From Sphingomonadaceae bacterium 3R27E2-A (GTDB lineage Bacteria > Pseudomonadota > Alphaproteobacteria > Sphingomonadales > Sphingomonadaceae): DNA of 64,000 bases. The first letter of the stretch is position 1. Each line of letters opens with the position of its first letter. Shown here piece by piece: positions 18,474-62,477 of this stretch. The stretch is from positions 1 through 64,000 of the forward strand of contig SCNT01000021.1 in NCBI GenBank assembly GCA_005503165.1, read 5' to 3'. The notes below the pieces were generated by a model. It was not told where the DNA came from and searched no databases. It saw only the letters and a program-made list of their open reading frames with translations. The position numbers and the translations under genes are program-made.

Positions 18474-21400
18474 CTATCGATCGGCCGCCGGGCTTTGCCC
18501 CGCGCCAATGTCGGTGACGCCCGCAGGCGATGGGTCGGCGTGCGCGCCGCCCGTTGTGAACCAGCGGCGCAGGCGCGGGGCCATGCGGCGTTCGAAGCCC
18601 GCTGCGAGGCTGAAGGACGCCGGCACGATCAGCAGCGTCAGCATCGTCGAAAGGATGAGCCCGCCGATCACCGTGACCGCCATCGGCGCGCGCCATGCGC
18701 CGTCGCCGGTGAGCGACAGCGCGGTCGGGATCATGCCCGCGACCATCGCGACCGTGGTCATCAGGATCGGCTGCGCGCGCTTGTGCCCGGCGTCGACGAT
18801 CGCCTCGTCGCGCGGCACCCCGGACGCCATTTCCTCGATCGCGAAGTCGACGAGGAGGATGCTGTTCTTGCCGACGATACCGAGCAGCATGAGCACGCCG
18901 ATGAACACGGGAAGCGAGAGCGGATAGCCCGTCAGCAGCAGCGCGACCGCGCCGCCGAGCGGGGCAAGCAGGAGCGAGCCCATGTTGACGAAGGGCGGGA
19001 TGATCTTGCGATAGAGCAGGATCAGGACCGCCAGCACGAGGAAGATCCCCGATACGACCGCGATCGCGAAGTTGCGCAGCATCTCGGCCTGCCACTTGGC
19101 GCTCCCGAGGACCAGCCGCGTGACCCCGGCGGGCAGCGTCTTGAGCGCCGGCAGCGCCTCGACCTTATCCATCGCCTGACCGGTCACGAGACCCGGAGCC
19201 AGGTCGGCCCCGATGGTGAGCTGGCGCACCTGGTTGGTGCGATTGATCTGGGTCGGGCCGGCGCCGAAGCCTATCTCGGCCACGACCGAGAGCGGCACCG
19301 TTCCCCCGTTCCGGGTCGGAACAGGCATGTTGCGCAGCGTATCGAGCCGCTCGCGCGCGGTTTCCGCAAGCGCGACGCGCACCGGTATCTGCCGGTCGGA
19401 TAGCGAGAATTTGGCGCTATTCTGGTCGATCTCGCCAAGCGTCGCGACGCGGATCGACTGGCTGAGCGCCTGCGTCGTCACGCCGAGCTGCGCCGCGAGC
19501 GCGAAGCGCGGGCGAATGACGATCTCGGGGCGCTGGAGATTGCCCTCGACACGCGGCGAGCGGATTTCCTTCACGCGGGACATTTCGGCAAGCAGCCGGT
19601 TGCCGACATCTTCGAGCTTCTTCGGATCGTCGCTGCCGAGCGTGATCGAGATGTCGCGGCTGCTGCCGCCGCCGCCGCCATGCTGTGACTGGAAGTTGAT
19701 GCGCGCATCGGGAACCTGAGCCAGCCGTGGCGCGCGGTCCTTTTCGAACTCGGTCGAGGTGAGCTCGCGGTCCTTGCGCAATTTCAGATAGACCGTCGCC
19801 GTGCCGACATCGATCCGCGACAGGGCGGATTCGACGAGCGGGTCGCGCTTCATGAGATCGGTCACCTCGTCGGCCACCGCCTCGGTCTGTTCGAGCGTTG
19901 CGCCCGGCGCGAGCTGGATGGCGACGCGGCTCGTGTCGGAATCGATCGACGGCTGGAAGGTCATCGGGAGCAGCGAGAAGCTGAAAATGGTCGCAAAGAG
20001 CGCCAGCACACCGATGCCGACCACCCAGACGCGATGGTCCTTGATGTAACCGAGCCATTTCCAGCGCCCGCCGCGCGCACGCGCGGCAGCGGCCCCGCTG
20101 GTATCGAGGCTCCAGCGCAAGATGCGCATATAGGTGTCGATCAGCGGGCCCTCGCCATGCTTTTGCGGACCCTGCGCGGAGAGAAAATAGGCGGCGAGCA
20201 TGGGTGTGATCATGCGCGCGACCGCGAGGCTCATCAGCACCGCGGCCACGACCGTCAGTCCGAAATTCTTGAAATATTGCCCGGCGACGCCCGGCATCAG
20301 CCCGACCGGCAGGAACACCGCGACGATCGTCATGGTTGTCGCGAGCACCGCGAGGCCGATCTCGTCGGCGGCATCGATCGAGGCCTGATAGGCCGATTTG
20401 CCCATCCGCATGTGGCGCACGATATTCTCGATCTCGACGATCGCATCGTCGACCAGCACGCCGGCAACGAGGCTCAATGCGAGCAAGGTCATCATGTTGA
20501 GCGAGAAGCCCATGAGGTCCATGAACAGGAAGGTCGGGACCGCCGACAGCGGGATGGCGAGCGCCGAGATCAGCGTCGCGCGCCAGTCGCGCAAGAAAAG
20601 GAAGACGACGACGACCGCGAGGATCGCGCCCTCGACCATCGCATTGATCGCCGAATGATATTGGCCCTTGGTATATTCGATGTCGCTGAACAGCTCGGTG
20701 AATTTGACCTTGGGGTTTTCCTTTTCGAGTTTTCGCAGCTCCTCGACCGCCGCGTCATAGACGGTGACATCGGAGGCGCCTTTTGCGCGCTCGAAGCCGA
20801 AGGTCAGCACCTGCCGCCCGTCCTGCTTCGAGACCGAGCGCTGCTCGGCGTAGAGATCCTTGACCTCGGCGATATCGGCGAGGCGCACGGTCCGGTTCGT
20901 CCCGACCGAGATCAGCGTCTCGCCGAGGGCGTTGGCGCTGCTCGCATTGCCGAGGATGCGGACCGCCTGCTCGGAGCCTGCGACCTCCATCCGGCCGCCG
21001 GCCGCATTGACGTTGAGCTGGACGAGCTGGGTGTTCACCGCGGCGGCGGTGAGACCATAGGCGCGCATGCGTTCGGGGTTGAGGATGACCCGGATTTCGC
21101 GGCTGACCCCGCCCCGGCGATAGGCGTCGCCCATACCGGGGACTGCGATCAGCCGCTTGGCCACGACATTGTCGACATACCAGCTCAACTCCTCGAGGGT
21201 CATGTCGGTGGCGGAGGCCGACCAGTAAGCGAGCGTGTTGCCCGAGGTCGACAGGCGGATGACCTGCGGTTCGAGGATGCCGTTCGGCAGATTGCTGCGG
21301 ATCTGGGTGATCTTGTCGCGGATGTCGGTCACCGCCCGGTCGATCGGCGTGCCGATCGCGAACTGGACGAAGGTCTGCGACTGGCCTTCGGTGACCGTCG

Positions 21401-21653
21401 AATTGAGCTCGTCGATTCCCTCGATCGTCCGCACCGCCGCCTCGACGCGCTGCGTGACCTGGGTTTCGAGTTCGGTGGGCGCGGCGCCCGGCTGGGCGAT
21501 GATGACGATGGCGCCCGGAAAATCGATGTCGGGATCGCTCTGGACCCCCATCATGAGGAAGGAGACGATGCCCGCCACCGTCAGGCCGAAGAACATGACG
21601 AGCGGCGGGATCGGGTTCCGGATGGACCAGGCCGAGATATTCTTGAAGTTCAT
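18474..21653 (-). CDS. HAE1/AcrB-type RND efflux pump without own adaptor
   Basis: The 1059-residue pump begins with NISAWSIRNPIPPLVMFFG and has the RND motif SLVAGVLVDDAIVEIENIVR in TM4 with two adjacent Asp, as in drug/organic-compound pumps (HAE1) rather than metal pumps. Periplasmic porter domains and twelve helices are as usual. No adaptor or outer membrane factor is next to it; the gene follows the P-type ATPase by 44 nt and precedes SRPBCC and Dsb genes. It may borrow an adaptor from another operon, or have a separate substrate. The export role is inferred from family. Confidence 0.9.
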   Translation of the reverse strand: MNFKNISAWSIRNPIPPLVMFFGLTVAGIVSFLMMGVQSDPDIDFPGAIVIIAQPGAAPTELETQVTQRVEAAVRTIEGIDELNSTVTEGQSQTFVQFAIGTPIDRAVTDIRDKITQIRSNLPNGILEPQVIRLSTSGNTLAYWSASATDMTLEELSWYVDNVVAKRLIAVPGMGDAYRRGGVSREIRVILNPERMRAYGLTAAAVNTQLVQLNVNAAGGRMEVAGSEQAVRILGNASSANALGETLISVGTNRTVRLADIAEVKDLYAEQRSVSKQDGRQVLTFGFERAKGASDVTVYDAAVEELRKLEKENPKVKFTELFSDIEYTKGQYHSAINAMVEGAILAVVVVFLFLRDWRATLISALAIPLSAVPTFLFMDLMGFSLNMMTLLALSLVAGVLVDDAIVEIENIVRHMRMGKSAYQASIDAADEIGLAVLATTMTIVAVFLPVGLMPGVAGQYFKNFGLTVVAAVLMSLAVARMITPMLAAYFLSAQGPQKHGEGPLIDTYMRILRWSLDTSGAAAARARGGRWKWLGYIKDHRVWVVGIGVLALFATIFSFSLLPMTFQPSIDSDTSRVAIQLAPGATLEQTEAVADEVTDLMKRDPLVESALSRIDVGTATVYLKLRKDRELTSTEFEKDRAPRLAQVPDARINFQSQHGGGGGSSRDISITLGSDDPKKLEDVGNRLLAEMSRVKEIRSPRVEGNLQRPEIVIRPRFALAAQLGVTTQALSQSIRVATLGEIDQNSAKFSLSDRQIPVRVALAETARERLDTLRNMPVPTRNGGTVPLSVVAEIGFGAGPTQINRTNQVRQLTIGADLAPGLVTGQAMDKVEALPALKTLPAGVTRLVLGSAKWQAEMLRNFAIAVVSGIFLVLAVLILLYRKIIPPFVNMGSLLLAPLGGAVALLLTGYPLSLPVFIGVLMLLGIVGKNSILLVDFAIEEMASGVPRDEAIVDAGHKRAQPILMTTVAMVAGMIPTALSLTGDGAWRAPMAVTVIGGLILSTMLTLLIVPASFSLAAGFERRMAPRLRRWFTTGGAHADPSPAGVTDIGAGQSPAADR

Positions 21654-25337: not shown

Positions 25338-28300
25338 CTATTCAGCGACCGGCTGGACCGCCGGTTCCGTTTTCCGCTTCAGGAACTTCGGCTGCCAGTC
25401 CGCCCCGAGAACGACCTTTGCGATCGCGGGGAGCACGAGCAGCGTCAGGATGGTCGCCGCGATGAGGCCGCCGATGACGGTCGTCGCGAGCGGCTTCTGC
25501 ACTTCGGCACCGGTGCCGGTCGCGATCGCCATCGGCACAAAGCCGATTGCGGGCACGAAGCCGGTCATAATCACCGCGCGCATCTTCTCGATCATGCCAT
25601 CGCGGATTGCCTCCGTGAGCGGGACATCATTCTCGAGCCGCTCGCGGATCGCCGTCATGACGACGAGACCATTGAGCACCGCGACGCCGGCAAGGCAGAT
25701 GAAGCCCACCGCCGCAGACACCGAGAAATTGATCCCGGTCAGCGCGAGGGTAAACACCCCGCCTGCGAGCCCAAGCGGCACCGCAAGGAACACGGCGGTC
25801 GCTCGCCCGAAGGTGCCGAGCGCCATGTAGAGCAGGATGAAGATACCCGCGAAGCAGAGCGGAACCACGATCGAGAGCCGCTGCGATGCGGCCTGCAGGC
25901 TTTCGAACTGCCCGCCCCATTCGAGATAATAGCCCGCCGGGAGCTTCACATTGGCGATCTTGGCCTGCGCTTCGGCCACGAAGGATCCCGCATCGCGGCC
26001 TTCGAGGTTCACCTGCACAACGACACGCCGCTTGCCATTTTCGCGGCTGATCTGGTTGAGCCCTTCGGTCAGCCGGATCTGCGCCACTTGCGCGAGCGGT
26101 ATCTGCCCGCGGCTCCCGCCTTCGGAAGGGAGGAGGACAGGAAGTGCGCGGATGTCGTCGAGATTGACGCGGGTCGCATCGGGAACACGCACGGTGATGT
26201 CGAACCGGCGATCGCCTTCGTAAAGAAGACCCGATTCCCGCCCGCCGAGCGCCGCCGACACCGTGTCGGCGACTTCCTGCACCGACAGGCCGTAGCGCGC
26301 GATCGCATTGCGATCGAGCTTCACGTCGAGCGTCGGAGCGCCGCCCACCTGGTCGGCCTTGACGCTGCCTGCACCCGGAATGCCCTGGAGCACGCGCACC
26401 ATCTCGTTTGCGGCGAGCGACATTTTGTCGAGGTCGTCCCCGTAAAGCTTGATGGCCACGTCACCGCGAACGCCCGCGATCAGTTCGTTGAAGCGAAGCT
26501 GGATCGGCTGGCTGACCTCGTAAAGCTGGCCGAGCTGGCCGCCAGCGGCTTTCTCGATACGCTCGACAACATCGGCCTTCGAATCGACACCTGCCGGCCA
26601 CTGGTCCTGCGGTTTCAGGATCACGAAGCCGTCCGAGATGTTCGGCGGCATCGGATCGGTCGCCACCTCGGCCGTGCCCGTCTTCGAGAACATCAACTCG
26701 ACTTCGGGCAGGCTCGAGATCGCCGTCTCGACGTTGCGCTGCATGGCCAGTGACTGTTCGAGGCTCACCGAAGGCACGCGCGTCGAGGCGATCGCCATAT
26801 TCTTCTCGTCAAGCTGCGGAATGAATTCCGAGCCGAGCAATCCGAACGCCGGGATGGCGAGGAGGAAGAAGGCAAAGCCACCGGCGATGAAGGCCCAAGG
26901 CTTGGCGATCGCTTTGTCGAGCAGCGGAAGATAGCGCTCCTTCGATTTGCGGATTACCCAGACTTCCTTCTCGGCAACCTTGCCGCGGATCATCAGCGCG
27001 ACAAGCGCCGGAACCAGCGTGATCGCGAGAATGAAGGCTGCGACGAGCGCGAGCATGATGGTGATGGCCATCGGCGAGAAGGTCTTGCCCTCGACGCCCG
27101 TGAACATCAGCAGCGGCGCAAAGGCGAGCAGAATGATCGCCTGCCCGAAGACGGTCGGTTTAATCATCTCCTGGCTGGCGCGCATCGTCTCCTCGAGACG
27201 TTCACGAAGGTTGAGCAATCTCCCTTCATGTTCCTGCCGGTGCGCCAATCTGGCGAGGCAGTTTTCGATGATGATCACCGCACCGTCGACGATCAGACCG
27301 AAGTCAAGCGCGCCGAGGCTCATCAGGTTACCGGGCACCCGGAACGCATTCATGCCCATCGCCATCATCAGGAAGGAAAAGGGGATGACGAGCACCGCGA
27401 TGATCGCGGCGCGCCAGTTGCCGAGCAGGAAGAAGAGCGCCGCCGCCACGAGCAGCGCGCCTTCGGTGAGGTTCTTTTCAACCGTGCCGACGGTCGCGTT
27501 CACGAGCTTGGCGCGGTCTAGCACCACCTTCACTTCGACGCCGGGCGGCAGGGTCTTCGACACCTGCGCGAGCTTCGCCGAGACCTCCTCGGCGACAGTC
27601 CGGCTGTTCTGGCCGATCAACATGAGCACGGTGCCGATCACCGCCTCCTTGCCGTTCATGCTGCCCGCACCGGTTCTAAGGTCGCCGCCGATCTTCACAT
27701 TGGCGAGCTGTGCGACGGTGACCGGCACGCCTCCGCGTGTCGCGACGACGGCGTTGCGGATTTCGTCGACCGAGCGCACGCGCGCATCGACGCGCACGAG
27801 ATAGGCCTCGCCGGCGCGGTTGTAGTAGTTGGCACCGACCGCGAGGTTGGCGCGTTCAAGGGCTTCGCCCAGCTCGCTATAGGAAATGCCGTAGCTGGTG
27901 AGGCGGGTCGGATCGGGTTCGACGACGAAAGTCTTGGCATAGCCGCCGATCGAGTCGACGCCGGCGACGCCACCGACCGACTTGAGCTGCGGGCTGACGA
28001 TCCAGTCCTGTACCGTGCGAAGGTAGCCCGATTTGGCAACTTCGTCGGTGAGGATATCGCCCTCGGGGGTCAGATAACTGCCGTCGGGTTGCCAGCCTGG
28101 TTGGCCCGCGACCTTCTTGGCGCCCTTCCCGTCGGGATTTTTATAGCCAACGGTGTACATGACGACCTCGCCGAGACCCGTTGTCACGGGACCGATCTGC
28201 GGCTGCGCTCCATCGGGAAGATTCTCGCCCGCCTGGAGAAGCCGTTCGCCCACCTGCTGGCGGGCGAAATAGAGGTCGGTTTCATCGGTGAAGATTGCCG

Positions 28301-28580
28301 TCACCTGGCTGAAGCCGTTGCGCGAGATCGAGCGTGTCGTCTCGAGCCCCGGAATGCCAGCCAGCGAGATTTCGATCGGGTAGGTTACGAGCTTCTCGAT
28401 TTCGACCGGCGAAAGACGCGGATCGATCGTGTTGATTTGTACCTGTTTGTTGGTGATGTCGGGAACCGCGTCGATCGGCAGCTTGGTGAGCTGCCATATG
28501 CCGAGCCCCGCAATCACAAGAAAGAGGAAGAGGACCGCCCAGCGCGCGCGGACGGATAGCGCCATCAGTTTCGCGATCAC
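25338..28580 (-). CDS. czcA: CzcA-type heavy-metal efflux RND pump (minus-strand czc operon)
   Basis: The 1080-residue pump starts at GTG 28580. TM4 has [19 protein letters not shown], the divalent-metal class (HME1: Zn, Co, Cd), and the N-terminus reads [16 protein letters not shown]. Compared with the other CzcA-type pump in this window, it carries an extra segment near residues 140-185 (PDGKGAKKVAGQ ... LTPEGDILTDE) in the first periplasmic loop. Twelve helices and both porter loops are present. It is adjacent to its adaptor gene (3-nt gap). Confidence 0.9.
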   Translation of the reverse strand: MIAKLMALSVRARWAVLFLFLVIAGLGIWQLTKLPIDAVPDITNKQVQINTIDPRLSPVEIEKLVTYPIEISLAGIPGLETTRSISRNGFSQVTAIFTDETDLYFARQQVGERLLQAGENLPDGAQPQIGPVTTGLGEVVMYTVGYKNPDGKGAKKVAGQPGWQPDGSYLTPEGDILTDEVAKSGYLRTVQDWIVSPQLKSVGGVAGVDSIGGYAKTFVVEPDPTRLTSYGISYSELGEALERANLAVGANYYNRAGEAYLVRVDARVRSVDEIRNAVVATRGGVPVTVAQLANVKIGGDLRTGAGSMNGKEAVIGTVLMLIGQNSRTVAEEVSAKLAQVSKTLPPGVEVKVVLDRAKLVNATVGTVEKNLTEGALLVAAALFFLLGNWRAAIIAVLVIPFSFLMMAMGMNAFRVPGNLMSLGALDFGLIVDGAVIIIENCLARLAHRQEHEGRLLNLRERLEETMRASQEMIKPTVFGQAIILLAFAPLLMFTGVEGKTFSPMAITIMLALVAAFILAITLVPALVALMIRGKVAEKEVWVIRKSKERYLPLLDKAIAKPWAFIAGGFAFFLLAIPAFGLLGSEFIPQLDEKNMAIASTRVPSVSLEQSLAMQRNVETAISSLPEVELMFSKTGTAEVATDPMPPNISDGFVILKPQDQWPAGVDSKADVVERIEKAAGGQLGQLYEVSQPIQLRFNELIAGVRGDVAIKLYGDDLDKMSLAANEMVRVLQGIPGAGSVKADQVGGAPTLDVKLDRNAIARYGLSVQEVADTVSAALGGRESGLLYEGDRRFDITVRVPDATRVNLDDIRALPVLLPSEGGSRGQIPLAQVAQIRLTEGLNQISRENGKRRVVVQVNLEGRDAGSFVAEAQAKIANVKLPAGYYLEWGGQFESLQAASQRLSIVVPLCFAGIFILLYMALGTFGRATAVFLAVPLGLAGGVFTLALTGINFSVSAAVGFICLAGVAVLNGLVVMTAIRERLENDVPLTEAIRDGMIEKMRAVIMTGFVPAIGFVPMAIATGTGAEVQKPLATTVIGGLIAATILTLLVLPAIAKVVLGADWQPKFLKRKTEPAVQPVAE

Positions 28581-34107: not shown

Positions 34108-38545
<4,438 letters not shown>

Positions 38546-46822: not shown

Positions 46823-48343
46823 ATGTTCGAACAGGCCTTCAGCACCATCAATGCCGCGCCGTCCTTCCGGCATCGCTATGACAATTTCATCGGTGGTCGT
46901 TGGAGTCCCCCCGCTGCGGGAGAATATTTCGCCGATACGAGCCCGATCAACGGCGCCCTGATCGCCGAGTTCGCGCTGTCAACACCGGAAGATGTCGAGC
47001 GCGCGCTCGATGCGGCGCACGCGGCCAAGGATCAGTGGGCCAAGATATCACCAGCCGAGCGTGCGCGGTTGCTCAACCGGATCGCCGACCGGCTGGAAGA
47101 CAATCTGGAGCTGCTGGCCTTCGCCGAGACGATCGACAACGGCAAGCCGATCCGCGAGACGCGTACCGCAGACGTGCCTCTGGCGATCGACCACTTCCGC
47201 TACTTCGCCGGCTGCATCCGGGCGGAAGAGGGCGCGATCTCGACGATCGATGCCGACACGATCGCCTATCATTTCCGCGAGCCGCTTGGCGTCGTCGGGC
47301 AGATCATCCCGTGGAACTTCCCGCTGCTCATGGCAGCCTGGAAAATCGCTCCGGCACTTGCCGCGGGCAATTGCACGGTGATCAAACCTGCGTCCCAGAC
47401 GCCTTTGACATTGCTGATGTTCGCAGAGCTCACCGCCGATATTCTGCCGCCTGGCGTGTTCAACGTCGTGACGGGACCTGGACGCACCGTTGGCCAGGCG
47501 ATCGCCGCCAATCCACGGATCGCCAAGGTCTCCTTTACGGGCGAGACGGTCACCGGCAAGCAGATCATGCATGCGGCCGCCGACCATCTCATCCCCCAGA
47601 CGATGGAACTTGGCGGCAAGTCGCCCAACATCTTCATGGCCGACGTGCTCGACGAGGAGGACGCCTTCTTCGACAAGGCGCTGGAGGGCTTCACGCTCTT
47701 CGCGTTCAACAAAGGCGAGGTCTGCACCTGTCCCTCGCGCGCGTTGATCCACGAATCGATCTTCGACCGTTTCATCGAGCGCGCCGTGGCGCGTGTCACA
47801 GCGATCCGCCAAGGTGATCCGCTCGACCCTTCGGTCCAGATCGGCGCCCAGGCATCCGAAGATCAACTCCACAAGATCCTCGGCTATATCGACATCGGAA
47901 AAACCGAGGGCGCGCAATGCCTGACCGGCGGCGCGCGGGCGCTCCCCGGCGGCGAACTCGATCGGGGCTATTTCGTGCAGCCCACCGTGTTCCTCGGCGA
48001 AAATCGGATGCGCATCTTCCAGGAAGAGATCTTCGGGCCGGTGCTGTCGGTGACCACATTCAAGACAGTCGACGAGGCGATCGCGATCGCCAACGATACC
48101 GCCTACGGCCTCGGCGCGGGCGTCTGGACCCGCAACGGCAACACGGCCTACCGGCTCGGCCGCGCGATCGAGGCCGGGCGGGTCTGGACCAACTGCTACC
48201 ATCACTATCCCGCACATGCCGCTTTCGGCGGATATAAGGCGTCGGGTTTCGGACGCGAAAATCACAAGATGATGCTCGACCATTATCAGCAGACCAAGAA
48301 CCTGCTCGTCTCCTATGACGAGCATGCGCTCGGCCTGTTCTGA
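46823..48343 (+). CDS. NAD(P)-dependent aldehyde dehydrogenase (AldB/ExaC-type)
   Basis: The 506-residue enzyme oxidises aldehydes to acids. It has the nucleotide-binding region [19 protein letters not shown], the general base Glu in [13 protein letters not shown] and the catalytic Cys in [11 protein letters not shown]. The length is normal. It is followed by an alcohol dehydrogenase (24-nt gap), so an alcohol-to-aldehyde-to-acid route, or the reverse under low oxygen, is implied. The presence of both in a copper cluster is unusual; aldehyde detoxification or a fermentative role fits the nearby oxygen sensor. Confidence 0.93.
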
Positions 48344-48367
48344 TCCCTCCCGGAAGGAGAAGCAGAC

Positions 48368-49393
48368 ATGGCGAAAACCATGAAGGCGGCGGTCGTCCGC
48401 GAATTCGGCAAGCCGCTGGTCATCGAAGAGGCGCCGATCCCGACGGTCGGACCCGGCCAGATCCTGGTAAAGGTCGCGGCGGCCGGCGTATGCCACACCG
48501 ACCTGCATGCGGCCGAGGGCGACTGGCCGGTCAAGCCCAACCCGCCCTTCATTCCCGGGCATGAAGGCGTCGGACATGTCGCCGCCGTCGGATCGGGCGT
48601 CACTCTTGTAAAAGAGGGCGACCGGGTCGGCGTCCCCTGGCTCTACTCCGCCTGCGGGCATTGCGTGCATTGCCTGGGCGGCTGGGAGACGTTGTGCGAG
48701 AGCCAGCAGAATACCGGCTATTCGGTGAATGGCAGCTTCGCGGAATATGTCCTCGCCGATCCAAATTATGTCGGGCATCTTCCCGACAATGTCGACTTCC
48801 TCGACATTGCGCCGATCCTCTGCGCCGGCGTCACCGTCTATAAAGGGCTGAAGGCCACCGAGGCGAAGCCCGGAGAGTGGGTGGTCGTCTCCGGGATCGG
48901 CGGGCTCGGCCACATGGCGGTGCAATATGCCCGCGCGATGGGTCTCAATGTGGCTGCGGTCGACGTCGACGACCGCAAGCTCGATCTCGCGACCCGTCTC
49001 GGCGCGGCGCTCACAGTCAACGCGCGTGAAGAGGATCCGTCAGCCGCCATCAAGCAGGCGATCGACGGTGCGCAGGGCGTCCTCGTCACCGCGGTCTCGC
49101 CCAAGGCCTTCCAGCAGGCGCTCGGCATGGTCCGGCGCGGTGGTACGGTCGCGCTCAACGGCCTTCCACCGGGCGATTTTCCGCTGTCGATCTTCGACAC
49201 CGTACTCAACGGCATCACCGTTCGCGGTTCGATCGTCGGCACCCGGCTCGACCTTCTCGAAGCACTGGCCTTCGCCGGCGAAGGCAAGGTGCATGCGACG
49301 GTGCACGCCGAAAAGCTGGAGAACATCAACGACGTCTTTGCGCGTATGCGCCGCGGCGACATTGACGGGCGGATCGTTCTCGATCTGGCCTGA
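48368..49393 (+). CDS. adhP: Zinc-dependent alcohol dehydrogenase (AdhP-type)
   Basis: The 341-residue enzyme interconverts alcohols and aldehydes with NAD. Catalytic zinc ligands are in [11 protein letters not shown] and [10 protein letters not shown]. The structural zinc cysteines are in [18 protein letters not shown]. The NAD-binding motif is [13 protein letters not shown]. It follows the aldehyde dehydrogenase and precedes the multicopper oxidase by 26 nt on the same strand, so these could be one transcript. Confidence 0.93.
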
Positions 49394-49419: not shown

Positions 49420-51114
49420 ATGCCCCTCCTTCATAGCTTGCCGATCGCACGGCGGCGCTTCGTTCAGGGGCTGGCGATTGGCGGAGCCGTCGCGGGCTTC
49501 ATCCCGGCACTGCAGGCGAAATCCCTCTCCGCGTCGACGGCTGAGTTGAGCGGGACCGAATTCGACCTCGAGATCGCCGAGATCCCGGTCAACTATACCG
49601 GCAAGCGCCGGGTCGCGACGGCAGTGAACGGCGCCGTACCCGCGCCGATCCTGCGCCTGCGCGAGGGCGACACCGTCACGCTGCGCGTTCGCAACAGCCT
49701 CAAGGAGATGTCCAGCATCCACTGGCACGGGATCATCCTGCCCGCAGAAATGGACGGCGTGCCCGGCATCAGCTTCGCCGGTATCGCCCCGGGCGAGACC
49801 TTCACCTATCGATTCGAAGTGCGCCAAGTGGGCACCTACTGGTATCACGCCCACACGCTCGCCGAGCAGACCGGGCTCTATGGCGCGATCGTCGTCGAGC
49901 CGAAGGTGCCGACGGGGCCTGTTCCCCACCGCGACTATACCATCATGCTGAGCGACTGGTCGGACGAACCACCGCTCCAGATCTTCACGAACCTCAAGAA
50001 GCTGAGCAGCTATTATAACTTCGCGCAGCCGACCGCCGGCGACTTTCTAGAGGATGTGAGCGAGCTGGGCCTCGCCAAAGCCCTCGAACGGCGGCGGATG
50101 TGGAACGGGTCGCGGATGAATCCGACCGACTATAGCGACCTTTCCGCAGCGACCTACACTTATCTTATGAACGGGACGACGCCTGCGGGCAACTGGACCG
50201 CCGTCGCCGCGCCCGGCGAGCATGTGCGCCTGCGCTTTGTGGGCGCGGGAACGGCGACCTTCTTCGACGTACGGATCCCCGGTGTGGAGCTGACAATCGT
50301 TTCTACCGACGGGCAGCCGGTGGTGCCGGTGACGGTCGAGGAGTTCCGGATCGGCCCGGGGGAAACCTATGATGTCGAGTTCACCATGCCCGACGGCAAT
50401 GCACGCACGATCTTCGCCCAGGCGATCGATCGGACCGGCTTTGCCCGCGGCACGATCGCGCCTGCTCCCGGCATGTCGGCACCGGTCCCCGCCCTCGATG
50501 CGCGGCCCTGGCTCGATCCCGTCGACATGATGGGGGCGATGATGACGATGGGCGGCGGCGAGCACGCCGGGCACGGCCTGACGGAGATGCCGCCGAAGGC
50601 CCGGCATGCCCGCACCGAATATGGCGCGAACACCGATATGCGCGTCGACTATCCCCGCGCCAATCTCGATGATCCCGGCGCCGGCCTGCGCGACCGCTCA
50701 TGGCGTGTCCTGACGCTGGCGGACTTGCGGACACCCAATGGCGATCCCGATCCGCGCGAGCCCGAACGCGAGATCGAGCTCCACCTCAACGGCAATATGG
50801 AGCGCTTCATCTGGGCGCTCGACGGAATCAAGCTCAATGACTCGCGGCCGCTCCACTTCAAGCCGAACGAGCGACTGCGCATCATCTTGGTCAACGACAC
50901 GATGATGTCCCATCCGATGCACCTCCACGGCATGTGGAGCGATGTCGAAGGATCCGATGGCGCCTTCCAGGTCCGCAAGCATACGGTGGTGGTCCAGCCT
51001 GCCCAGAGGGTGAGCTTCCGCGTCACCGCCGATGCTATGGGTCGATGGGCGTTTCACTGCCATCTGCTCTACCATATGGCGGCCGGCATGTTCCGGGAGG
51101 TCGTCGTCGCATGA
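49420..51114 (+). CDS. copA: Copper resistance multicopper oxidase CopA (PcoA-type)
   Basis: The 564-residue periplasmic oxidase has a Tat signal (ARRRFVQGLAIGGAVAG) and the four copper motifs: SIHWHGIILP, YWYHAHTLAEQTG, HPMHLHGMW and AFHCHLLYHMAAGMFRE. A short Met-rich insert (DMMGAMMTMGGGEHAGH) precedes the last domain. It oxidises Cu+ to the less toxic Cu2+ using oxygen. It overlaps the start of the CopB gene by 4 nt. This is a different protein from the copper ATPase, which also bears the name copA. Confidence 0.95.
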   Translation: MPLLHSLPIARRRFVQGLAIGGAVAGFIPALQAKSLSASTAELSGTEFDLEIAEIPVNYTGKRRVATAVNGAVPAPILRLREGDTVTLRVRNSLKEMSSIHWHGIILPAEMDGVPGISFAGIAPGETFTYRFEVRQVGTYWYHAHTLAEQTGLYGAIVVEPKVPTGPVPHRDYTIMLSDWSDEPPLQIFTNLKKLSSYYNFAQPTAGDFLEDVSELGLAKALERRRMWNGSRMNPTDYSDLSAATYTYLMNGTTPAGNWTAVAAPGEHVRLRFVGAGTATFFDVRIPGVELTIVSTDGQPVVPVTVEEFRIGPGETYDVEFTMPDGNARTIFAQAIDRTGFARGTIAPAPGMSAPVPALDARPWLDPVDMMGAMMTMGGGEHAGHGLTEMPPKARHARTEYGANTDMRVDYPRANLDDPGAGLRDRSWRVLTLADLRTPNGDPDPREPEREIELHLNGNMERFIWALDGIKLNDSRPLHFKPNERLRIILVNDTMMSHPMHLHGMWSDVEGSDGAFQVRKHTVVVQPAQRVSFRVTADAMGRWAFHCHLLYHMAAGMFREVVVA

Positions 51115-56631: not shown

Positions 56632-56970
56632 TCACATATGCTCGTGCTTCATCGGCATGTCTTTCGGTTTGTCCGCAGGCTTGGACGTCCCCATGCCGCC
56701 CATGGCAGGCATGGGCTTGTCGTTGCCGCCGCATCCACCGCCGGACTGATCCTGCATCTTTTCCATGCCCTCGCGGTGATCTTTCATCATCTTGTCGTGC
56801 ATCTGCTGTCCGCCGTGGTCCATGCCGTGGCGATGCTCGTCGCCGGGCTTCTGGGCCGGCGCGGTGGCGGCCGGCTTCTTCGGCGGCCCTTTGCTCTCGT
56901 CGGCGAGGACCGGCATCTGGGTCAGGGCGAGGAGGCCAAGGACCGTCAGAACAGGGGAAATCTTGCGCAT
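56632..56970 (-). CDS. Secreted Met/His-rich protein
   Basis: The 112-residue protein starts at ATG 56970 with a signal peptide (VLTVLGLLALTQMPVLA) and a mature chain rich in Met, His, Lys and Gly (HRHGMDHGGQQMHDKMMKDH; MPMKHEHM at the end), with one Cys. Such compositions bind Cu+ or Ag+. It has no known family. It is last in the minus-strand copper/redox block and ends in a strong terminator. Confidence 0.7.
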   Translation of the reverse strand: MRKISPVLTVLGLLALTQMPVLADESKGPPKKPAATAPAQKPGDEHRHGMDHGGQQMHDKMMKDHREGMEKMQDQSGGGCGGNDKPMPAMGGMGTSKPADKPKDMPMKHEHM

Positions 56971-57122
56971 GATGTGTCTCCATTCGAAATCTTTGCTTTG
57001 TATCGACACCAAGTCGGATCGGCGCCGCTGTGCTCGATATGCTGCACCGAACGTCCGGATCGAAATACGTGAAGCCCACATGTTGATCTCTCGCCCGAAG
57101 AAAATCGGAACGCCACGTGCTG

Positions 57123-57563
57123 CTATGAAGACATGACCATCATGCCGCACCCCTCGGCACAGCGGCGGCATAAGTTCGCGCAGCGCAACAGCTGTGCGTC
57201 ACCCGTGAATGCAGCGCAGTTTTCCGCGCACAATCGGCAGATCTGCTCGCAGGTCTGGCAAAGGATCCCATGAGCCGGAGAATTGCGAAGCAGCGATTGC
57301 GCGGTCGTGAGGCAAATCCCGGCGCAATCGGCGAGAATAGCCATGATCCCCGGAGCGGCCTTGTCGCCGCCCTCTTCTAGGCAATGGCGCGCGGCTTCGA
57401 TGCAGCTTCGATGCGTTTCCAGGCACAACGCCGCGCAATCGGCAAGCGGCATTGCATGGGAGTCGGGCATTCCCCCGCCGGGCGGTGGATCTTCGGCGCG
57501 CGCGGCGCCGACGAGCATTGTCAGGGCAAGCCCGGTCCCCAGGATCGATCGCCTCTCAAGCAT
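57123..57563 (-). CDS. Csp-like four-helix-bundle copper storage protein, Tat-exported
   Basis: The 146-residue protein has a Tat-like leader (LERRSILGTGLALTMLVGA) and a helical Cys-rich body with 15 cysteines in CxxxC-like spacing along helices (DCAALCLETHRSC; CQTCEQICRLCAENC; CANLCRRCAEGCG). This matches the four-helix-bundle copper-binding family (Csp), which stores many Cu+ ions in the bundle core. An exported form is known for Csp1 of methanotrophs. ATG 57563 was chosen because it opens the Tat leader. It probably buffers periplasmic copper. Confidence 0.87.
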   Translation of the reverse strand: MLERRSILGTGLALTMLVGAARAEDPPPGGGMPDSHAMPLADCAALCLETHRSCIEAARHCLEEGGDKAAPGIMAILADCAGICLTTAQSLLRNSPAHGILCQTCEQICRLCAENCAAFTGDAQLLRCANLCRRCAEGCGMMVMSS

Positions 57564-57650
57564 GAAAATTCTCCCATTGAATCGAGCCATGCGGCCGAAG
57601 CCGCCATCCTCTCGGAAAGATGCGCCTGAGCGTGTCGGATGGCATGGTGG

Positions 57651-58055
57651 TCACCGGTCCGTCGCCGCGTCGAGGCGGGCGCGCTCCATGCGCGTATTCT
57701 CCCAAGGCCAATGACCATTGATCTCGACGCCCAGCGAAATGCTCAGGAAGGTACGAACAAACACGAGGCCCGCGAGCACGACGAGGTCGTTAAGCGTAGG
57801 GTTGATCACCAGTGATTTCACGATGTCGCCCGCTACGAGAAACTCAAGGCCGAGCAATATGCTGCGACCGAGTGTCGATCGGAACGGACGATAGGCTTCG
57901 GCATAGAGGCCTCGACAGGCCTGACGGAGAAACGTCGCGGTCGCCAGCGCGGCACCTGTCAGGATGGTTGCCGTGCCGCTCAGTTCCAGGATAACCACGG
58001 CGAGGCGGAACAGGCTCTCGAGCCAGTGACCGCTTCCGCCGTCAATGGTGATCAT
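57651..58055 (-). CDS. DUF1622 membrane protein
   Basis: The 134-residue protein has three to four helices with the DUF1622 pattern LAVVILELSGTATILTGAAL, then LGRSILLGLEFLVAGDIVKS. The family function is unknown. Its start overlaps the stop of the multiheme cytochrome gene by 14 nt, suggesting co-translation and a link to that electron-transfer module. Confidence 0.82.
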   Translation of the reverse strand: MITIDGGSGHWLESLFRLAVVILELSGTATILTGAALATATFLRQACRGLYAEAYRPFRSTLGRSILLGLEFLVAGDIVKSLVINPTLNDLVVLAGLVFVRTFLSISLGVEINGHWPWENTRMERARLDAATDR

Positions 58056-58755
58056 ACCAGCCTCTCCTGCGAATATTGTTGAAACTGTCGGTCGTGTGAC
58101 AGGCATAGCATTGTTCCACGGTCGCCCGCTCGCCTGCGGCGCGCTGCGAAACCATGCTGAAATGCTCCATATAGTGGCTCGGCGGCGCCCGGTGGCATTC
58201 GGAGCAGTTCCGGGAATTGGTCGAGGGATGCCGGTAGCCGTCGATGCGCCAGCTGTCGGTCGCGTGGCAACTCGCGCAGCGCGTTCCGAAGAGGCCCAGA
58301 TGAGGGTCGCGAATGGAATGGCAACCAGCACAGGCGAGCACGCCTGTCACCGCGCCGCCGGCGGTCGCGGCGGCGGGGCGCTGCGACCATATTCCCGGCT
58401 TGAACAGGGCCTTGTGATCCATGCGAATGAGGCTCTGTCTGCCCGCATGCTCGACGTGGCATGAGGTGCATTGCAAGGCCGAGGCATGGAATTGGGTCGA
58501 TTGCTTGTTTCCGAAGTCGGTCGCGGCATGACAACTCTTGCAAGTCTCCCCCGTCACACCAGCGATGGGGGTGTGGCAGTTTCGGCACGATGCTGCGAGG
58601 CTGCGGTGGGCTTCGGACAGGGGGCCCGGCGAAACGAGCTGCGCGACCACGCCGGCCTGAGGCGGCGCGTTCGACCGCGACAGCGCCGGTAGCCCAAGCA
58701 GCACGACGAGCAGGCTGGTCGCAAAAAGGGCCGGAAGCAGCCAGTGGCGCATCAT
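58042..58755 (-). CDS. Seven-heme periplasmic cytochrome c
   Basis: The 237-residue protein has an N-terminal signal/anchor (WLLPALFATSLLVVLLGLPA) and seven CxxCH heme motifs in order: CRNCH, CKSCH, CTSCH, CAGCH, CASCH, CSECH and CYACH. Additional His residues can be second ligands. It resembles the cytochrome c3/NapC-type multiheme group. Its start overlaps the stop of the cytochrome b-like gene, so the two are coupled. It would carry electrons from the membrane to a periplasmic acceptor. The acceptor is not known. Confidence 0.88.
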   Translation of the reverse strand: MMRHWLLPALFATSLLVVLLGLPALSRSNAPPQAGVVAQLVSPGPLSEAHRSLAASCRNCHTPIAGVTGETCKSCHAATDFGNKQSTQFHASALQCTSCHVEHAGRQSLIRMDHKALFKPGIWSQRPAAATAGGAVTGVLACAGCHSIRDPHLGLFGTRCASCHATDSWRIDGYRHPSTNSRNCSECHRAPPSHYMEHFSMVSQRAAGERATVEQCYACHTTDSFNNIRRRGWYDHH

Positions 58756-59477
58756 GGCCAGCGAAGACCAAAATAGACCGCGGCCGCGATATGGAGAATC
58801 ACGAGCGCGTAAAGCAGCGAACCGGCCACGATATGAAACCATCGCCAGCGTGCGAAAAGTACTCCCGTTACTTCCTCTGCCCGCACGGCATATTCGGTGT
58901 CGGAAATGGCCGCGGCAAGCTTGATCGCATCCTGCGGTGGTGGTTCAGCGGGCTGGTTTGCGCGGGTGAAGACATATCGAAGCCAGCGTGGCGGCTCCTG
59001 CGTCTCCCCAATTTCGCCCGGCGCCGCCGGAATGTCCAGAAAGGCCGACTGGAGCGAAGCCAGTTCCGACTTGCGGCCGCGCAAGGCCCTTGCAAGTTCG
59101 CCGAGAAGATAGCGCCCGGCAAATCCGCTTGCAACGGTGAGGAGGAGGAGGCCGGTTAGCATGAGGCCCAGCGGACTCGCGAACTTGTGCGCGGTGTGAA
59201 GGAGGGCGAAGAAAGCTCCCAGAACGCCAGAATAGATATGAACGGCAAGGAGCGTCGGCTTACGCACATAGCGCGTAATCCGACGATCGAGCGGCGGGAT
59301 ATGTTTGGCCGCCACATAGGGAAGCGTCAGCAGCATGCACAGGGCCGCAAGGATGCCGAGCAGACCGCCGCCGAGGCTACCGGGGAAGCGTGGGGATGCG
59401 TGAACGAGAAATCCGGCCGGAAAGACCAGAATGAACCCCACCAGAAGCACCATCAATATGTCGCCGCGTTCGCGCAT
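58752..59477 (-). CDS. b-type cytochrome-like integral membrane protein
   Basis: The 241-residue protein has five likely helices. Histidines lie in pairs suited to two hemes: AVHIYSGVLG and ALLHTAHKF in the third helix, and WFHIVAGSLL and VILHIAAAVYF in the last. This arrangement is like cytochrome b561/b6-type electron-transfer proteins. A central loop of about 80 residues lies between helices 4 and 5. Its start overlaps the reductase stop by 1-3 nt, and its stop overlaps the heptaheme start. It would pass electrons across the membrane. Confidence 0.75.
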   Translation of the reverse strand: MRERGDILMVLLVGFILVFPAGFLVHASPRFPGSLGGGLLGILAALCMLLTLPYVAAKHIPPLDRRITRYVRKPTLLAVHIYSGVLGAFFALLHTAHKFASPLGLMLTGLLLLTVASGFAGRYLLGELARALRGRKSELASLQSAFLDIPAAPGEIGETQEPPRWLRYVFTRANQPAEPPPQDAIKLAAAISDTEYAVRAEEVTGVLFARWRWFHIVAGSLLYALVILHIAAAVYFGLRWP

Positions 59478-61354
59478 CAGGCTTCAACCACGATCGGCTT
59501 GCCGCTGCCTTTGGCCTGGCAAGCCAATATATAGCCGTTCGCCTTGTCTTCCGGCGCCAGGCCCGCTTCGTTCGCCATCGTGACTTCACCGTCGAGCAGC
59601 TTGGTGACGCATAGTCCGCAGTCTCCGGTGCGGCAGGAATAGGGTATCTCGACGCCAACCCCCTCGGCGGCTTCGAGCACGGTCTGATCGCCAGCCAGGG
59701 CGGCGGACACACCCGACAGAGCGAACGTCACCGAAGCTTCGGCAATCCTTGTGGAAGGCGCGGACGGAGGCTGTACCGTGCGACTTGCATCGTTGCCGGG
59801 CGCGCTGGGCGCGTCGACTGGATCGATGGGCAGCGATGCGGGCCCAAAGGCTTCGGTATGAAGTTGCACTTCCGGCACGCCGAGCTCGGCGAGCTCCGCC
59901 TTCATCGCCGCCATCATCGCGGGGGGACCGCACAGGTGGATGCGGCGGCGCGCGATGTCGGGGACGGCCGAAAGCAGCATGTCCCGCGTCAGGGGGCCGA
60001 CGGCGCCATGCCAGACCGTCCCTGGCGAGCGCTCCATCGCGGCGAAGACATGCAGATTGTCATGAAGCCGCTCGAGTCGCTCGATTTCGTCACGGAAGAC
60101 GAACTCGTCCGTGGACCGAGCGCCATAAAGGAAGAATATCTCGCCCGGCCAGGCGGTGTCTGTAAGATAGCGCAATACCGACATCATCGGCGTGATCCCG
60201 ACACCGCCCGCGATGAGCACGATACTATCCGCGGTCGTCCCAGTGAAGGTGAAGGAGCCGAAAGGGCCCGAGGCTCGAACAAGATCCCCGACAATGAGCG
60301 TGTCGTGCAGGTGGCGGGACACCGCTCCCTGCTCCTCGCGCTTCACCGTCAGTTCGACATAGGCCCGCTGCGTCGGCGACGAAGCGATAGTGTAGGATCG
60401 GCGGGCACGCTTGCCGGGCTCGGGCTCGACCTCGATTTGCAGAAACTGACCGGGCAGGAAATCGAAAGGCAGCCGGTCGGCTGCGGGATCTGCGAGACGG
60501 AAGGTCCTGATGGTCGGCGTCTCCCGGATGATCCGCGTCACCCGCAGCGGTCCGGACCAGGGCCGGGGCTTGCGCAGCGAAGCACCGGCCGGGGCGGGCG
60601 CGTTGCTTGGCGCGAGCGCTCCGGCCGTAGCGGCCTGCATCTCCGGAGCTGCGGCCGGCGACGGTTGCGTGTTGGCGACCTTCGCGGTTCCTTTCCTGGC
60701 TGCGACGATCTGACGGATGCGCTTGAGACGAAGTAGCTGCAACGCGGCGAGGCCGGTACTCAGCAAGAGGAGGAACAGCATCAGCAGCAGGTGGGAGGGA
60801 GACAGGCCGAAAGGATGGGCCGCGTGCGTCTCGTCCGGCTCGATCGACAGGCGATCGCGGAACCAGTTCATCGCGGCGCCCGCCGGCTTTCCGGTCCCGG
60901 CGAGGGCCATCCGGGCAGCCGCACCGCTATCGAGAAGATCGCTGCCTTCGCGAAGATTGCGCACGGCGGCGATTTGCTCGGTCGCCGTTTCGGCGTGCGC
61001 GGCTGCGCGGGCGGCCTCGGAGATCAGCATCAGCCCTCGATGCGACCGTTGCTCGGCTTGCCGCAGCAGGGCTTGCCTCGCCGCGTCATCGAGTGCCGGT
61101 AGCGCGAGCAATTGCGAGAAGAAAGGAGACTGGCGGCGGCCGCCATGCTCGCCTTCCATCATTTCGCCCATCATCGATTGCATTTCGCCCGCGGGCTTCA
61201 TCCCGGATGACGCCATGCTGCCAACCGCCACGCCGCCAGGCGGCGAGGCACTCCCATGATGGGCGGCATGCTCGTCGGCGTCCTCCGCATGGACGATCGA
61301 TGCCGTCAGAAACGTCATCGCCACGCACAGGCCGAAGCGGAATGATTTCTGCAT
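59477..61354 (-). CDS. Membrane-anchored flavin/2Fe-2S reductase with periplasmic Met/His-rich head
   Basis: The 625-residue fusion has a signal peptide (1-23), a periplasmic part (24-185) with HAAHHG and a Met cluster (MQSMMGEMMEGEHGG), and one helix (about 186-208) followed by KRIRQ (positive inside). A cytoplasmic ferredoxin-NAD(P)H reductase module follows (about 265-500: RRSYTIASSP for FAD, AGGVGITPMMSVLRYL and HLCGPPAMMAAMK for NAD(P)H). A plant-type ferredoxin ends it (about 540-625: SCRTGDCGLC and a fourth Cys in ILACQ). It takes electrons from NAD(P)H and passes them to the cluster, probably to the neighbouring b-type cytochrome. I know no named family with this order. Confidence 0.85.
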   Translation of the reverse strand: MQKSFRFGLCVAMTFLTASIVHAEDADEHAAHHGSASPPGGVAVGSMASSGMKPAGEMQSMMGEMMEGEHGGRRQSPFFSQLLALPALDDAARQALLRQAEQRSHRGLMLISEAARAAAHAETATEQIAAVRNLREGSDLLDSGAAARMALAGTGKPAGAAMNWFRDRLSIEPDETHAAHPFGLSPSHLLLMLFLLLLSTGLAALQLLRLKRIRQIVAARKGTAKVANTQPSPAAAPEMQAATAGALAPSNAPAPAGASLRKPRPWSGPLRVTRIIRETPTIRTFRLADPAADRLPFDFLPGQFLQIEVEPEPGKRARRSYTIASSPTQRAYVELTVKREEQGAVSRHLHDTLIVGDLVRASGPFGSFTFTGTTADSIVLIAGGVGITPMMSVLRYLTDTAWPGEIFFLYGARSTDEFVFRDEIERLERLHDNLHVFAAMERSPGTVWHGAVGPLTRDMLLSAVPDIARRRIHLCGPPAMMAAMKAELAELGVPEVQLHTEAFGPASLPIDPVDAPSAPGNDASRTVQPPSAPSTRIAEASVTFALSGVSAALAGDQTVLEAAEGVGVEIPYSCRTGDCGLCVTKLLDGEVTMANEAGLAPEDKANGYILACQAKGSGKPIVVEA

Positions 61355-61382: not shown

Positions 61383-61742
61383 TTACATATGCTTCATCGG
61401 CGCCGACTGATCGGTCGTGGTCTGATCCGCGGGCTGCATATTGCCTTGCCCCGCCCCACCCTTGCGCATCTCGTCATGGTCCATTTCCTGACGATGATGG
61501 CGCATCATTTCCTCGTCCATCGCGTCATCTTCATGATCCATGGCATCGGGCGCGGCTGGCGCGGCGGATGAGGCATCGGTGGACGGCGTGGAACCAGCGC
61601 CACCGGCGGTTGCGTCGGGGGTTGCCGAGGCGGCGTCCGCGGCCTTGTTCTCGGCCTTGTCTCCACAGCCGGCGAGCGCGAGTGCCGCTGCGAGCGCGAC
61701 ACCATATCCAGCCCATTTCAGGTCGATTTTTCGGTTTGTCAT
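61383..61742 (-). CDS. Met/His-rich lipoprotein
   Basis: The 119-residue protein has a lipobox (ALALAGCGDK), an Ala/Ser/Pro linker and a C-terminal Met/His/Asp/Glu cluster (HEDDAMDEEMMRHHRQEMDH; APMKHM at the end). The final motif resembles the tail of the protein at 56632. It is likely a membrane-bound copper ligand. It lies 28 nt upstream of the reductase gene, so is probably first in that operon. Confidence 0.72.
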   Translation of the reverse strand: MTNRKIDLKWAGYGVALAAALALAGCGDKAENKAADAASATPDATAGGAGSTPSTDASSAAPAAPDAMDHEDDAMDEEMMRHHRQEMDHDEMRKGGAGQGNMQPADQTTTDQSAPMKHM

Positions 61743-61796: not shown

Positions 61797-62015
61797 TCAT
61801 TTCGCGTCGCGCAGAATCCGCTGGCAGCGGCCGTGCGACAGGTTCATCGGATTGAAGCCCTGGCGTTTCATCTCGCCATGGTCATGGCGCTGATCGAGCC
61901 CCATCTTCTCTTCCATGGCCCGGCAGCTATCGACTTCGGCCTGAGTGGCCCGGGTCGTGACGCAGCCTCCGAGAAGGAGCGCGGGGGTGAGCAACAAAAT
62001 GGAATATTTCTTCAT
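61797..62015 (-). CDS. Small lipoprotein, unknown
   Basis: The 72-residue protein has a lipobox (LLLGGCVTT), two further Cys (DSCRAME, GRCQRIL) and His/Met (QRHDHGEMKRQGFNPM). It could bind metal in the periplasm. It follows the MerR gene by 45 nt on the minus strand and ends in a strong hairpin. Confidence 0.65.
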   Translation of the reverse strand: MKKYSILLLTPALLLGGCVTTRATQAEVDSCRAMEEKMGLDQRHDHGEMKRQGFNPMNLSHGRCQRILRDAK

Positions 62016-62060: not shown

Positions 62061-62477
62061 CTATTTTTTTGGTCTTCGTTTTTCCGCCAAGAATGCGATT
62101 ATGTTGCAGTCGGAGACCGGCGCCTCTCGCGGGCAATTGTCGGCGAGGTCCTGCAGCACATCCCGAATCTCAGTCAGCTTCCTGACCCGCGTTTCGGCCT
62201 CCCGAACCTTGTCGAGCGTGATCGCAAGCACGGCCGCCGCGGTGGCGGTATCCGATGCCTTGAGGGTGAGAAGCTGGCGCGCCTGTTCGAGCGTGAATCC
62301 GAGTTCCTGCGACGCGCGAATGAAGTTGAGCCGCTCAAGGTCCCCGTCGCTGTAAAGGCGATAGCCGGCCGCGGTACGGCCCGGGGCCGGTAGCAAGCCC
62401 GTCCGCTCATAATAGCGTATCGTATCGCGCCCCACGCCCGCGGCTTCGGCGAGCTTTCCGATCTTGTAGCTTCCCAT
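62061..62477 (-). CDS. MerR-family regulator (CueR-like)
   Basis: The 138-residue protein has a winged helix (KIGKLAEAAGVGRDTIRYYE) and a C-terminal metal loop with two cysteines in NCPREAPVSDCNIIAFL. The position that is Cys in divalent-metal MerR proteins (Ser77 in CueR) is Ala here, in line with a monovalent ion such as Cu+. ATG 62477 gives the normal N-terminus; the open frame extends further but includes the operator. It is read from its own operator and followed by the small lipoprotein gene. Confidence 0.86.
   Translation of the reverse strand: MGSYKIGKLAEAAGVGRDTIRYYERTGLLPAPGRTAAGYRLYSDGDLERLNFIRASQELGFTLEQARQLLTLKASDTATAAAVLAITLDKVREAETRVRKLTEIRDVLQDLADNCPREAPVSDCNIIAFLAEKRRPKK

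Follow-up and report, generated by a model that had tools for sequence, protein, structure and literature searches.

Four closely packed genes lie on the minus strand near the end of the DNA that we analyzed, a window of 64,000 nucleotides (nt) on contig 13 of the 4.5-Mb genome of Sphingomonadaceae bacterium 3R27E2-A. Read in the direction of the genes, they are an open reading frame (ORF) with the Pfam domains of a reductase (RED; 59477..61354, 625 amino acids [aa]), a putative five-helix membrane cytochrome b with invariant histidines (CYB; 58752..59477, 241 aa), a heptaheme cytochrome c whose N terminus has a hydrophobic segment (MHC; 58042..58755, 237 aa), and a DUF1622 membrane protein (57651..58055, 134 aa; PF07784, E = 2.7e-22), all with the stop codon included in the coordinates. 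A first-pass annotation of this DNA had taken them for four coupled genes, and we recovered the same coordinates and overlaps: RED and CYB share 1 nt (TGATG), CYB and MHC share 4 nt (ATGATG; or 1 nt should translation begin at the second ATG), and MHC and DUF1622 share 14 nt. The annotation had also suggested that the group forms a transmembrane electron-transfer system linked to copper. Here we present evidence that the first three genes form a conserved unit, referred to below as the trio, and weigh what that unit might do.

For comparison with other bacteria, we called a locus strong when its CYB match exceeded 100 bits, which held for 68 of the 83 loci longer than 9 kb. Clustered at 75% CYB identity, the strong loci fell into 22 clusters, one of which accounts for 40 loci, and their 41 distinct CYB ORFs together with the window gave the 42 rows of our alignments. 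RED, CYB, and MHC stood on one strand and in that order in all 68 strong loci and all 22 clusters. The strong family spans three proteobacterial classes plus the Bacteroidota, with named sources among the Sphingomonadaceae, Caulobacter, Acetobacter, Roseomonas, Bradyrhizobium, Methylocystis, Variovorax, Methylophaga, Alteromonas/Salinimonas, Legionella, Spirosoma, and Pontibacter. Because the order and the close joins recur in such unrelated bacteria, the arrangement is not due to chance, and gene order beyond close relatives, which the first-pass annotation had named as a check on its proposal, held throughout. The pairwise distances of the three proteins were also correlated (CYB-RED, 0.90; CYB-MHC, 0.84; MHC-RED, 0.79), as measured over 120 pairs from 16 representatives, among which related pairs are not independent. 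As judged from gene order and sequence, RED, CYB, and MHC are one unit across phyla. The four-gene system originally envisaged survives in these three members, but DUF1622 is not an obligatory part of it: a DUF1622 match lies within 10 kb in 53 of the 68 strong loci, sometimes several kilobases away and in Variovorax on the opposite strand, which makes it a frequent companion. The name DUF1622 occurs in the published literature.

The spread of the unit is patchy. CYB was found in 10 of 199 sampled genomes of the window's family (E < 1e-35) and in 7 of 398 sampled genomes of its phylum at ≥248 bits, with the next match at 61 bits. Among 72,556 plasmid records, 52 carry CYB matches, and 26 of these are typed as conjugative. 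Plasmid pSLPG of Sphingobium sp. SYK-6 is one carrier of the trio. The window CYB is 100% identical to the copy in a Sphingomonadales metagenome-assembled genome (MAG), possibly one and the same genome, and 95 to 98% identical to those of two Sphingopyxis genomes. A contig filed under a Tardiphaga MAG (L033) carries a CYB 98% identical to that of the window, reflecting either a recent transfer or a binning error. Broken copies occur as well: RED is in pieces at L066 and L141, the latter with MHC in pieces too, and a Bradyrhizobium BTAi1 plasmid carries an extra copy (L143) with a short RED beside a transposase, plus an MHC remnant.

RED matched three Pfam domains above their cutoffs, namely, FAD_binding_6 (1.3e-15), NAD_binding_1 (4.7e-18), and Fer2 (3.2e-16). 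By eye it begins with a signal peptide, which is followed by a Met/His-rich head (approximately residues 24 to 180), one transmembrane (TM) helix, and the FAD/NAD(P) and 2Fe-2S domains; the head is predicted to be periplasmic and the reductase and ferredoxin domains cytoplasmic. Reductases of the FNR/Fer2 kind are marked by flavin and nucleotide motifs and by a CX4CX2C...C pattern. RED has both the domains and the conserved residues of an FNR-type NAD(P)H reductase with a 2Fe-2S cluster, and the Fer2 cysteines (574/579/582/612) are present in 40 of 42 rows, the exceptions being the fragmented REDs of L066 and L141. Among the best 25 of 31 NCBIfam families, RED fell below the cutoffs for named reductases (GbcB, PaaE, BenC, and others); the best E-value belonged to GbcB, at 225.1 bits against a cutoff of 500.

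Conservation of RED is strongest in its redox parts, and the N-terminal 180 residues are variable. In Acetobacter the head is absent from the annotated RED, and a separate upstream ORF matches it weakly. Some loci have a gene annotated as Spy/CpxP-like or as a periplasmic heavy metal sensor directly upstream. Together with the predicted periplasmic position of the head, this last observation could mean that the head senses copper and either signals or controls the flow of electrons, so that the whole chain would be regulatory. We give this idea very little credence, as a sensing head would have to be the poorly conserved part of a protein whose redox domains are conserved most, and one that the annotated Acetobacter protein lacks.

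CYB proved harder to place. Its best Pfam matches were below the cutoffs for Ferric_reduct (PF01794; 22.6 bits against 28), DUF4405 (17.5 against 26.7), and Ni_hydr_CYTB/cytochrome b561 (PF01292; 14.9 against 30.1), and it had no NCBIfam match. We therefore refrained from assigning CYB to either PF01794 or PF01292, whose Pfam cutoffs it missed in both cases. What the protein does have is four histidines, H80, H94, H215, and H229, which are the sole invariant histidines among 35 CYB sequences whose most distant members are 17 to 27% identical; six conserved histidines, these four included, are retained in all 42 rows. The four form two H-X13-H pairs, H80/H94 in predicted TM3 and H215/H229 in predicted TM5. 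In the ferric reductase domain, two H-X13-H pairs on two TM helices hold two b hemes, and H80/H94 and H215/H229 are likely the ligands of two b hemes in CYB as well. Our term "two-heme cytochrome b" thus rests on these four histidines and is not a family call. Given their invariance, it is unlikely that CYB binds no heme.

A structure model of CYB has five helices, a long TM4-TM5 hairpin, and a mean predicted local distance difference test (pLDDT) score of 85.3. The loop at residues 58 to 73 contains six Lys and Arg residues, compared to one in each of two short loops on the opposite side; because it is basic, the positive-inside rule would place H80 and H215 toward the cytoplasm and H94 and H229 toward the periplasm. 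A Foldseek search with the CYB model against the PDB returned nothing at an E-value of ≤0.001 (STEAP2 ranked 20th, with a TM score of 0.20), and the CYB profile, searched against PDB sequences, gave four matches (E = 0.013 to 0.5), none of them a cytochrome. Using hhalign with shallow alignments and without a positive control, we obtained probabilities of 0.9 to 1.6% (E = 0.03 to 0.06) against 22 PF01794 sequences and of 6 to 7% (E = 0.005 to 0.007, over 31 columns around TM5) against PF01292. The comparison sets kept 22 of 25 PF01794 loci and 24 of 25 PF01292 loci, with three and one dropped for an in-frame stop, probably at contig edges.

MHC carries exactly seven CXXCH motifs and matches Cytochrome_C7 (PF14522) at 28.8 bits, above the cutoff of 24.8. 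All seven motifs are found in 39 of 42 rows; the incomplete rows are L121 with one CX3CH, L034 at a contig end, and the broken L141. In L121 (6323-7132), it is the third CXXCH that CX3CH replaces. Nine histidines outside these motifs were invariant in ten sequences, and in the 42-row alignment they are absent solely from the broken row and the cut row. If every heme were bis-His, seven distal positions would need filling, so that at least two of the nine would be spare. Between hemes 6 and 7, MHC contains the sequence PPSHYMEHFSM, and the pattern within it, H-x-M-x-H-F-x-M (H194, M196, H198, and M201), occurs in every one of the 35 distinct heme regions of strong-family MHCs. Only 2 of 43 other ORFs have it, both of them strong-family remnants (L141 and L143). 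It is a fair guess that this motif is a putative copper site. We discarded a structure model of MHC (mean pLDDT, 42.6), and a PDB sequence search with the MHC profile gave three multiheme matches with E-values of 0.04 to 0.09. The host genome encodes CcmH (PF03918, 139.8 bits), the sole component of c-type cytochrome maturation that was searched. On a Methylophaga plasmid (L078:12751-16750), ccm cytochrome c maturation genes lie approximately 3 kb downstream of the trio.

The CYB-MHC pair also exists in a more distant form. At 27 loci, CYB matches scored 38 to 64 bits, and in all 27 the CYB gene had an adjacent multiheme c match. A match to the FNR-2Fe-2S reductase was seen at 9 of these loci, many of which are too short to show one. 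The CYBs of this sister family keep the same four histidines, and those tested matched no family above cutoff; its MHC ORFs hold 4 to 34 CXXCH motifs. The H-x-M-x-H-F-x-M pattern appeared in none of 39 ORFs from the distant loci, some of which are alternative cuts of a single gene. Cytochrome b and multiheme c thus make up a broad module, of which the copper-linked branch described below is a special form. At L087 (2610-6991), L133 (3847-8777), L128, L131, and L136, the distant CYB lies beside very large cytochromes with 19 to 34 CXXCH motifs, in ORFs of up to 1240 aa; the source genome of L087 falls within the window's own family.

The company of the trio points toward copper. As copper markers we counted phmmer matches to a multicopper oxidase, CopB, a Csp-like protein, or a P-ATPase with midpoints within 10 kb. 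Such markers were found near 57 of the 68 strong loci and in 15 of the 22 clusters when any member was counted (14 of 22 with one representative each), in agreement with the copper link proposed at first reading. The same queries found none near 15 loci of the distant sister family. The difference between 14 of 22 and 0 of 15 corresponds to a one-sided hypergeometric probability of ∼5e-5, a hand-computed value for loci that were not randomly sampled. Recurring neighbors are of copper type, comprising multicopper oxidase, CopB, Csp-like, and copC/copD genes. As a background, 2,909 of the 72,556 plasmid records match the window multicopper oxidase at an E-value of ≤1e-60.

Two loci, in Alteromonas and its relative Salinimonas, bear on the direction of electron flow. 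In Alteromonas macleodii (L147), copC and copD lie ∼11 to 12 kb upstream of the trio, MerR and cupredoxin genes lie ∼13 to 16 kb downstream, and NiFe hydrogenase genes follow the trio with one hypothetical gene between (L147:18067-33296). A periplasmic donor could then reduce MHC and the chain reduce NAD(P)+, the donor in Alteromonas being the adjacent hydrogenase. Among the annotated stretches, however, a hydrogenase is found only in Alteromonas; the Salinimonas locus (L142:8064-14136) has copD, MerR, P-ATPase, and cupredoxin genes within 10 kb, and hypE is its sole annotated gene of the hydrogenase set. Other periplasmic donors are, as a matter of general knowledge, mostly too oxidizing to reduce NAD(P)+, and we consider such reverse flow very unlikely. 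The hydrogenase was likewise set aside as a key to function, since the Salinimonas trio has only hypE annotated and both trios lie in copper islands. Hydrogenase genes are mentioned for the Alteromonas copper island in a published account (PMC8478169). The words "ferredoxin" and "cytochrome c" are absent from the main text of that paper, as are "cytochrome" and "ferredoxin" from the main text of PMC4781885.

The domain content, the invariant cofactor ligands, the cross-phylum unit, and the copper-gene company can all be read from the sequences. From these we infer heme loading, the sides of the membrane, the sequence of transfer steps and which way they run, the identity of the acceptor as Cu(II), and metal binding by the MHC motif and the RED head. 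Electrons from NAD(P)H would enter the FAD domain of RED and pass to its 2Fe-2S cluster, from there to the inner b heme of CYB (H80/H215) and on to the outer b heme (H94/H229). MHC would then conduct them through its seven c hemes, and they would exit near H-x-M-x-H-F-x-M to Cu(II). Copper may be held or passed on by the Met/His head of RED and by the Met/His-rich lipoprotein encoded upstream of it, and the resulting Cu(I) would be taken over by the Csp-like store and by Cu(I) exporters. Csp-type stores take up Cu(I). Copper chaperones and P1B exporters favor the same form, according to a published study (PMC7558416). A Cu(II) reductase would thus have a use, because the stores take, and the chaperones and exporters prefer, its product.

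The relay itself is well supported by the sequence, and the transmembrane electron transfer first proposed for these genes gains weight from predicted cofactor-binding residues that are kept across phyla. With belief and doubt about evenly balanced, we propose that RED-CYB-MHC is a transmembrane NAD(P)H:cytochrome c relay in copper resistance, most likely reducing periplasmic Cu(II) to Cu(I). We put forward more tentatively, as somewhat more likely wrong than right, the full form of this proposal: that the trio is an NAD(P)H:Cu(II) oxidoreductase of the bacterial envelope that has not been described before, consists of three proteins, and spreads horizontally. It would combine a di-heme cytochrome b of a new family with a heptaheme c that has its own copper site, and would power copper resistance by making Cu(I) for both storage and export.

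Several points weigh against Cu(II) reduction. For seven of the 22 clusters (L121, L123, L124, L083, L088, L140, and L143), phmmer gave no copper marker within 10 kb, and L122 was counted as positive through weak matches alone (74 and 36 bits). By eye, L123 carries DUF411-like and HMA-like ORFs and L083, L088, and L124 each have a Met/His-rich neighbor; L121 and L140 have RND genes nearby, and L143 is the copy with a cut RED. Company is also not function, because copper islands hold many other genes. Moreover, the same islands carry a multicopper oxidase, which would oxidize Cu(I); one might speculate that its activity and reduction for storage belong to different conditions, such as high and low oxygen. 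Common descent may explain why the H-x-M-x-H-F-x-M motif is kept, or the motif may consist partly of heme ligands, and the MHC model was too poor to yield a heme geometry. Finally, with 10 Lys and Arg against 12 Asp and Glu residues, charge does not prove that the long TM4-TM5 loop of CYB lies on the cytoplasmic side.

The RND efflux genes near L121 and L140, together with the RND-type ORFs of the window, are of unassigned metal and would fit an acceptor that is another island metal (silver, gold, iron, chromate, or tellurite), with copper one of several. This seems unlikely to us, given that the recurrent company of the trio is of copper type (multicopper oxidase, CopB, Csp-like, and copC/copD).

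A further alternative keeps the relay as proposed and changes its purpose: it could serve general reductive protection of the periplasm against copper-driven oxidation, with copper not the substrate. Variants of this idea include keeping the thiols of the Csp-like protein reduced, re-reducing oxidized proteins, and removing peroxide or oxygen. MsrPQ provides a comparable reductive protection of the periplasm. The domain and ligand evidence is identical for both readings, damage of this kind arises in copper islands, and the Csp-like protein presumably needs reduced thiols. Yet no annotated repair enzyme or peroxidase recurs near the trio in 16 annotated stretches, the gene tables of which are incomplete, and the Met/His motif of MHC and the Met/His head of RED both suggest a metal. 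We therefore regard general protection as doubtful, if worth keeping in view, and continue with Cu(II) reduction as the preferred function.

Several known systems share the logic of this relay, and none has the same set of proteins. The eukaryotic FRE/STEAP and NOX reductases (PF01794) are alike in taking NAD(P)H inside and reducing metal or oxygen outside, and in them His pairs spanning two helices hold the b hemes. Some of these reductases reduce Cu(II), according to one report (PMC7558416). In the trio, by contrast, one chain is the flavin/2Fe-2S reductase and another is the heme protein, a heptaheme c is added, and RED has a Met/His head; CYB is also under the PF01794 cutoff, and the profile comparison with that family, made with shallow alignments and without a positive control, was nonsignificant. 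In MsrPQ with Fre, electrons pass from a cytoplasmic flavin reductase to a b cytochrome in the membrane and then to a periplasmic stress defense partner. The trio would follow the same path from reductase to b cytochrome to periplasmic partner, but its partner is a heptaheme c rather than a molybdenum enzyme, and RED is membrane tethered with its own 2Fe-2S domain.

To our knowledge, Csp1 and CopA/CopB bind, store, or oxidize copper, and we know of no electron chain in their description; they share the island of the trio, with the Csp-like gene in the same gene run in sphingomonads. The sister family has the same core pair and four histidines, and differs from the trio in lacking the copper marker (15 loci) and H-x-M-x-H-F-x-M. 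CcoG resembles the proposed relay in being a bacterial membrane cupric reductase, and more CcoG gives higher copper tolerance (PMC7558416). CcoG is recognized by two 4Fe-4S clusters, whereas Pfam searches found no 4Fe-4S domain in RED, CYB, or MHC, and the trio has predicted flavin, 2Fe-2S, b heme, and c heme sites. The first-pass annotation knew of no described system with this set, and our search of the open, non-subscription literature likewise found no published description of RED-CYB-MHC among the papers listed. Copper resistance is usually told as binding, oxidizing, and exporting the metal, and an NAD(P)H-powered chain would, if true, add a reducing arm. The trio is small and mobile, and it would also lend a name to the cytochrome b/multiheme c modules, which form a broad family that is uncurated.

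The genes around the trio in the window share its strand. A MerR-family regulator heads the run (62061..62477, with the start placed by eye inside a 229-aa ORF; MerR_1, E = 1.2e-19) and is below the curated cutoffs of both the CueR model (109.1 bits against 147.4) and the mercury MerR model (110.7 against 150.85). It is followed by LP72, by eye a short lipoprotein (61797..62015, 72-aa ORF), and, just upstream of RED, LP119 (61383..61742, 119 aa), which by eye is a Met/His-rich lipoprotein. Beyond DUF1622 come a Csp1-like Cys-rich protein, a candidate Cu(I) store (57123..57590, 155 aa), and downstream of it a 179-aa ORF with a Met/His-rich tail (by eye; 56632..57171).

The eight genes from MerR to the Csp1-like gene (MerR, LP72, LP119, RED, CYB, MHC, DUF1622, and Csp1-like) lie on one strand and within 4.5 kb at 36 of 45 loci that CYB identified in named genomes. 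Of the rest, three are shorter than 9 kb and were left out of the recount, four (L034, L037, L065, and L070) are cut by contig ends, and two (L036 and L066) are without some of the upstream matches. Over all strong loci, LP119 matches were found near the trio in 44 of 68 and LP72 matches in 43 of 68. The initial description of all the neighbors as copper ligands was slightly too strong. The Csp1-like protein matches TIGR04401 at 29.6 bits (E = 6.8e-7), under the 100-bit cutoff, and LP119 and the 179-aa protein are Met/His rich by eye, with no match above cutoff for the former and no family match for the latter in the Pfam and NCBIfam scans.

On the opposite strand, the same island carries a CopA/PcoA-like multicopper oxidase (49420..51114, plus strand), an ORF 86% identical to plasmid genes annotated as copper resistance system multicopper oxidase. 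Four large ORFs elsewhere in the window are of RND efflux type by eye (7662-11273, 18474-21653, 25338-28580, and 35258-38545), and because of them the whole window resembles a metal resistance region. Beside the multicopper oxidase, the copper island also holds genes for an aldehyde dehydrogenase and an AdhP alcohol dehydrogenase (46823-49393). Of the 68 strong loci, 36 have a match to the former and 35 a match to the latter no more than 10 kb from the trio.

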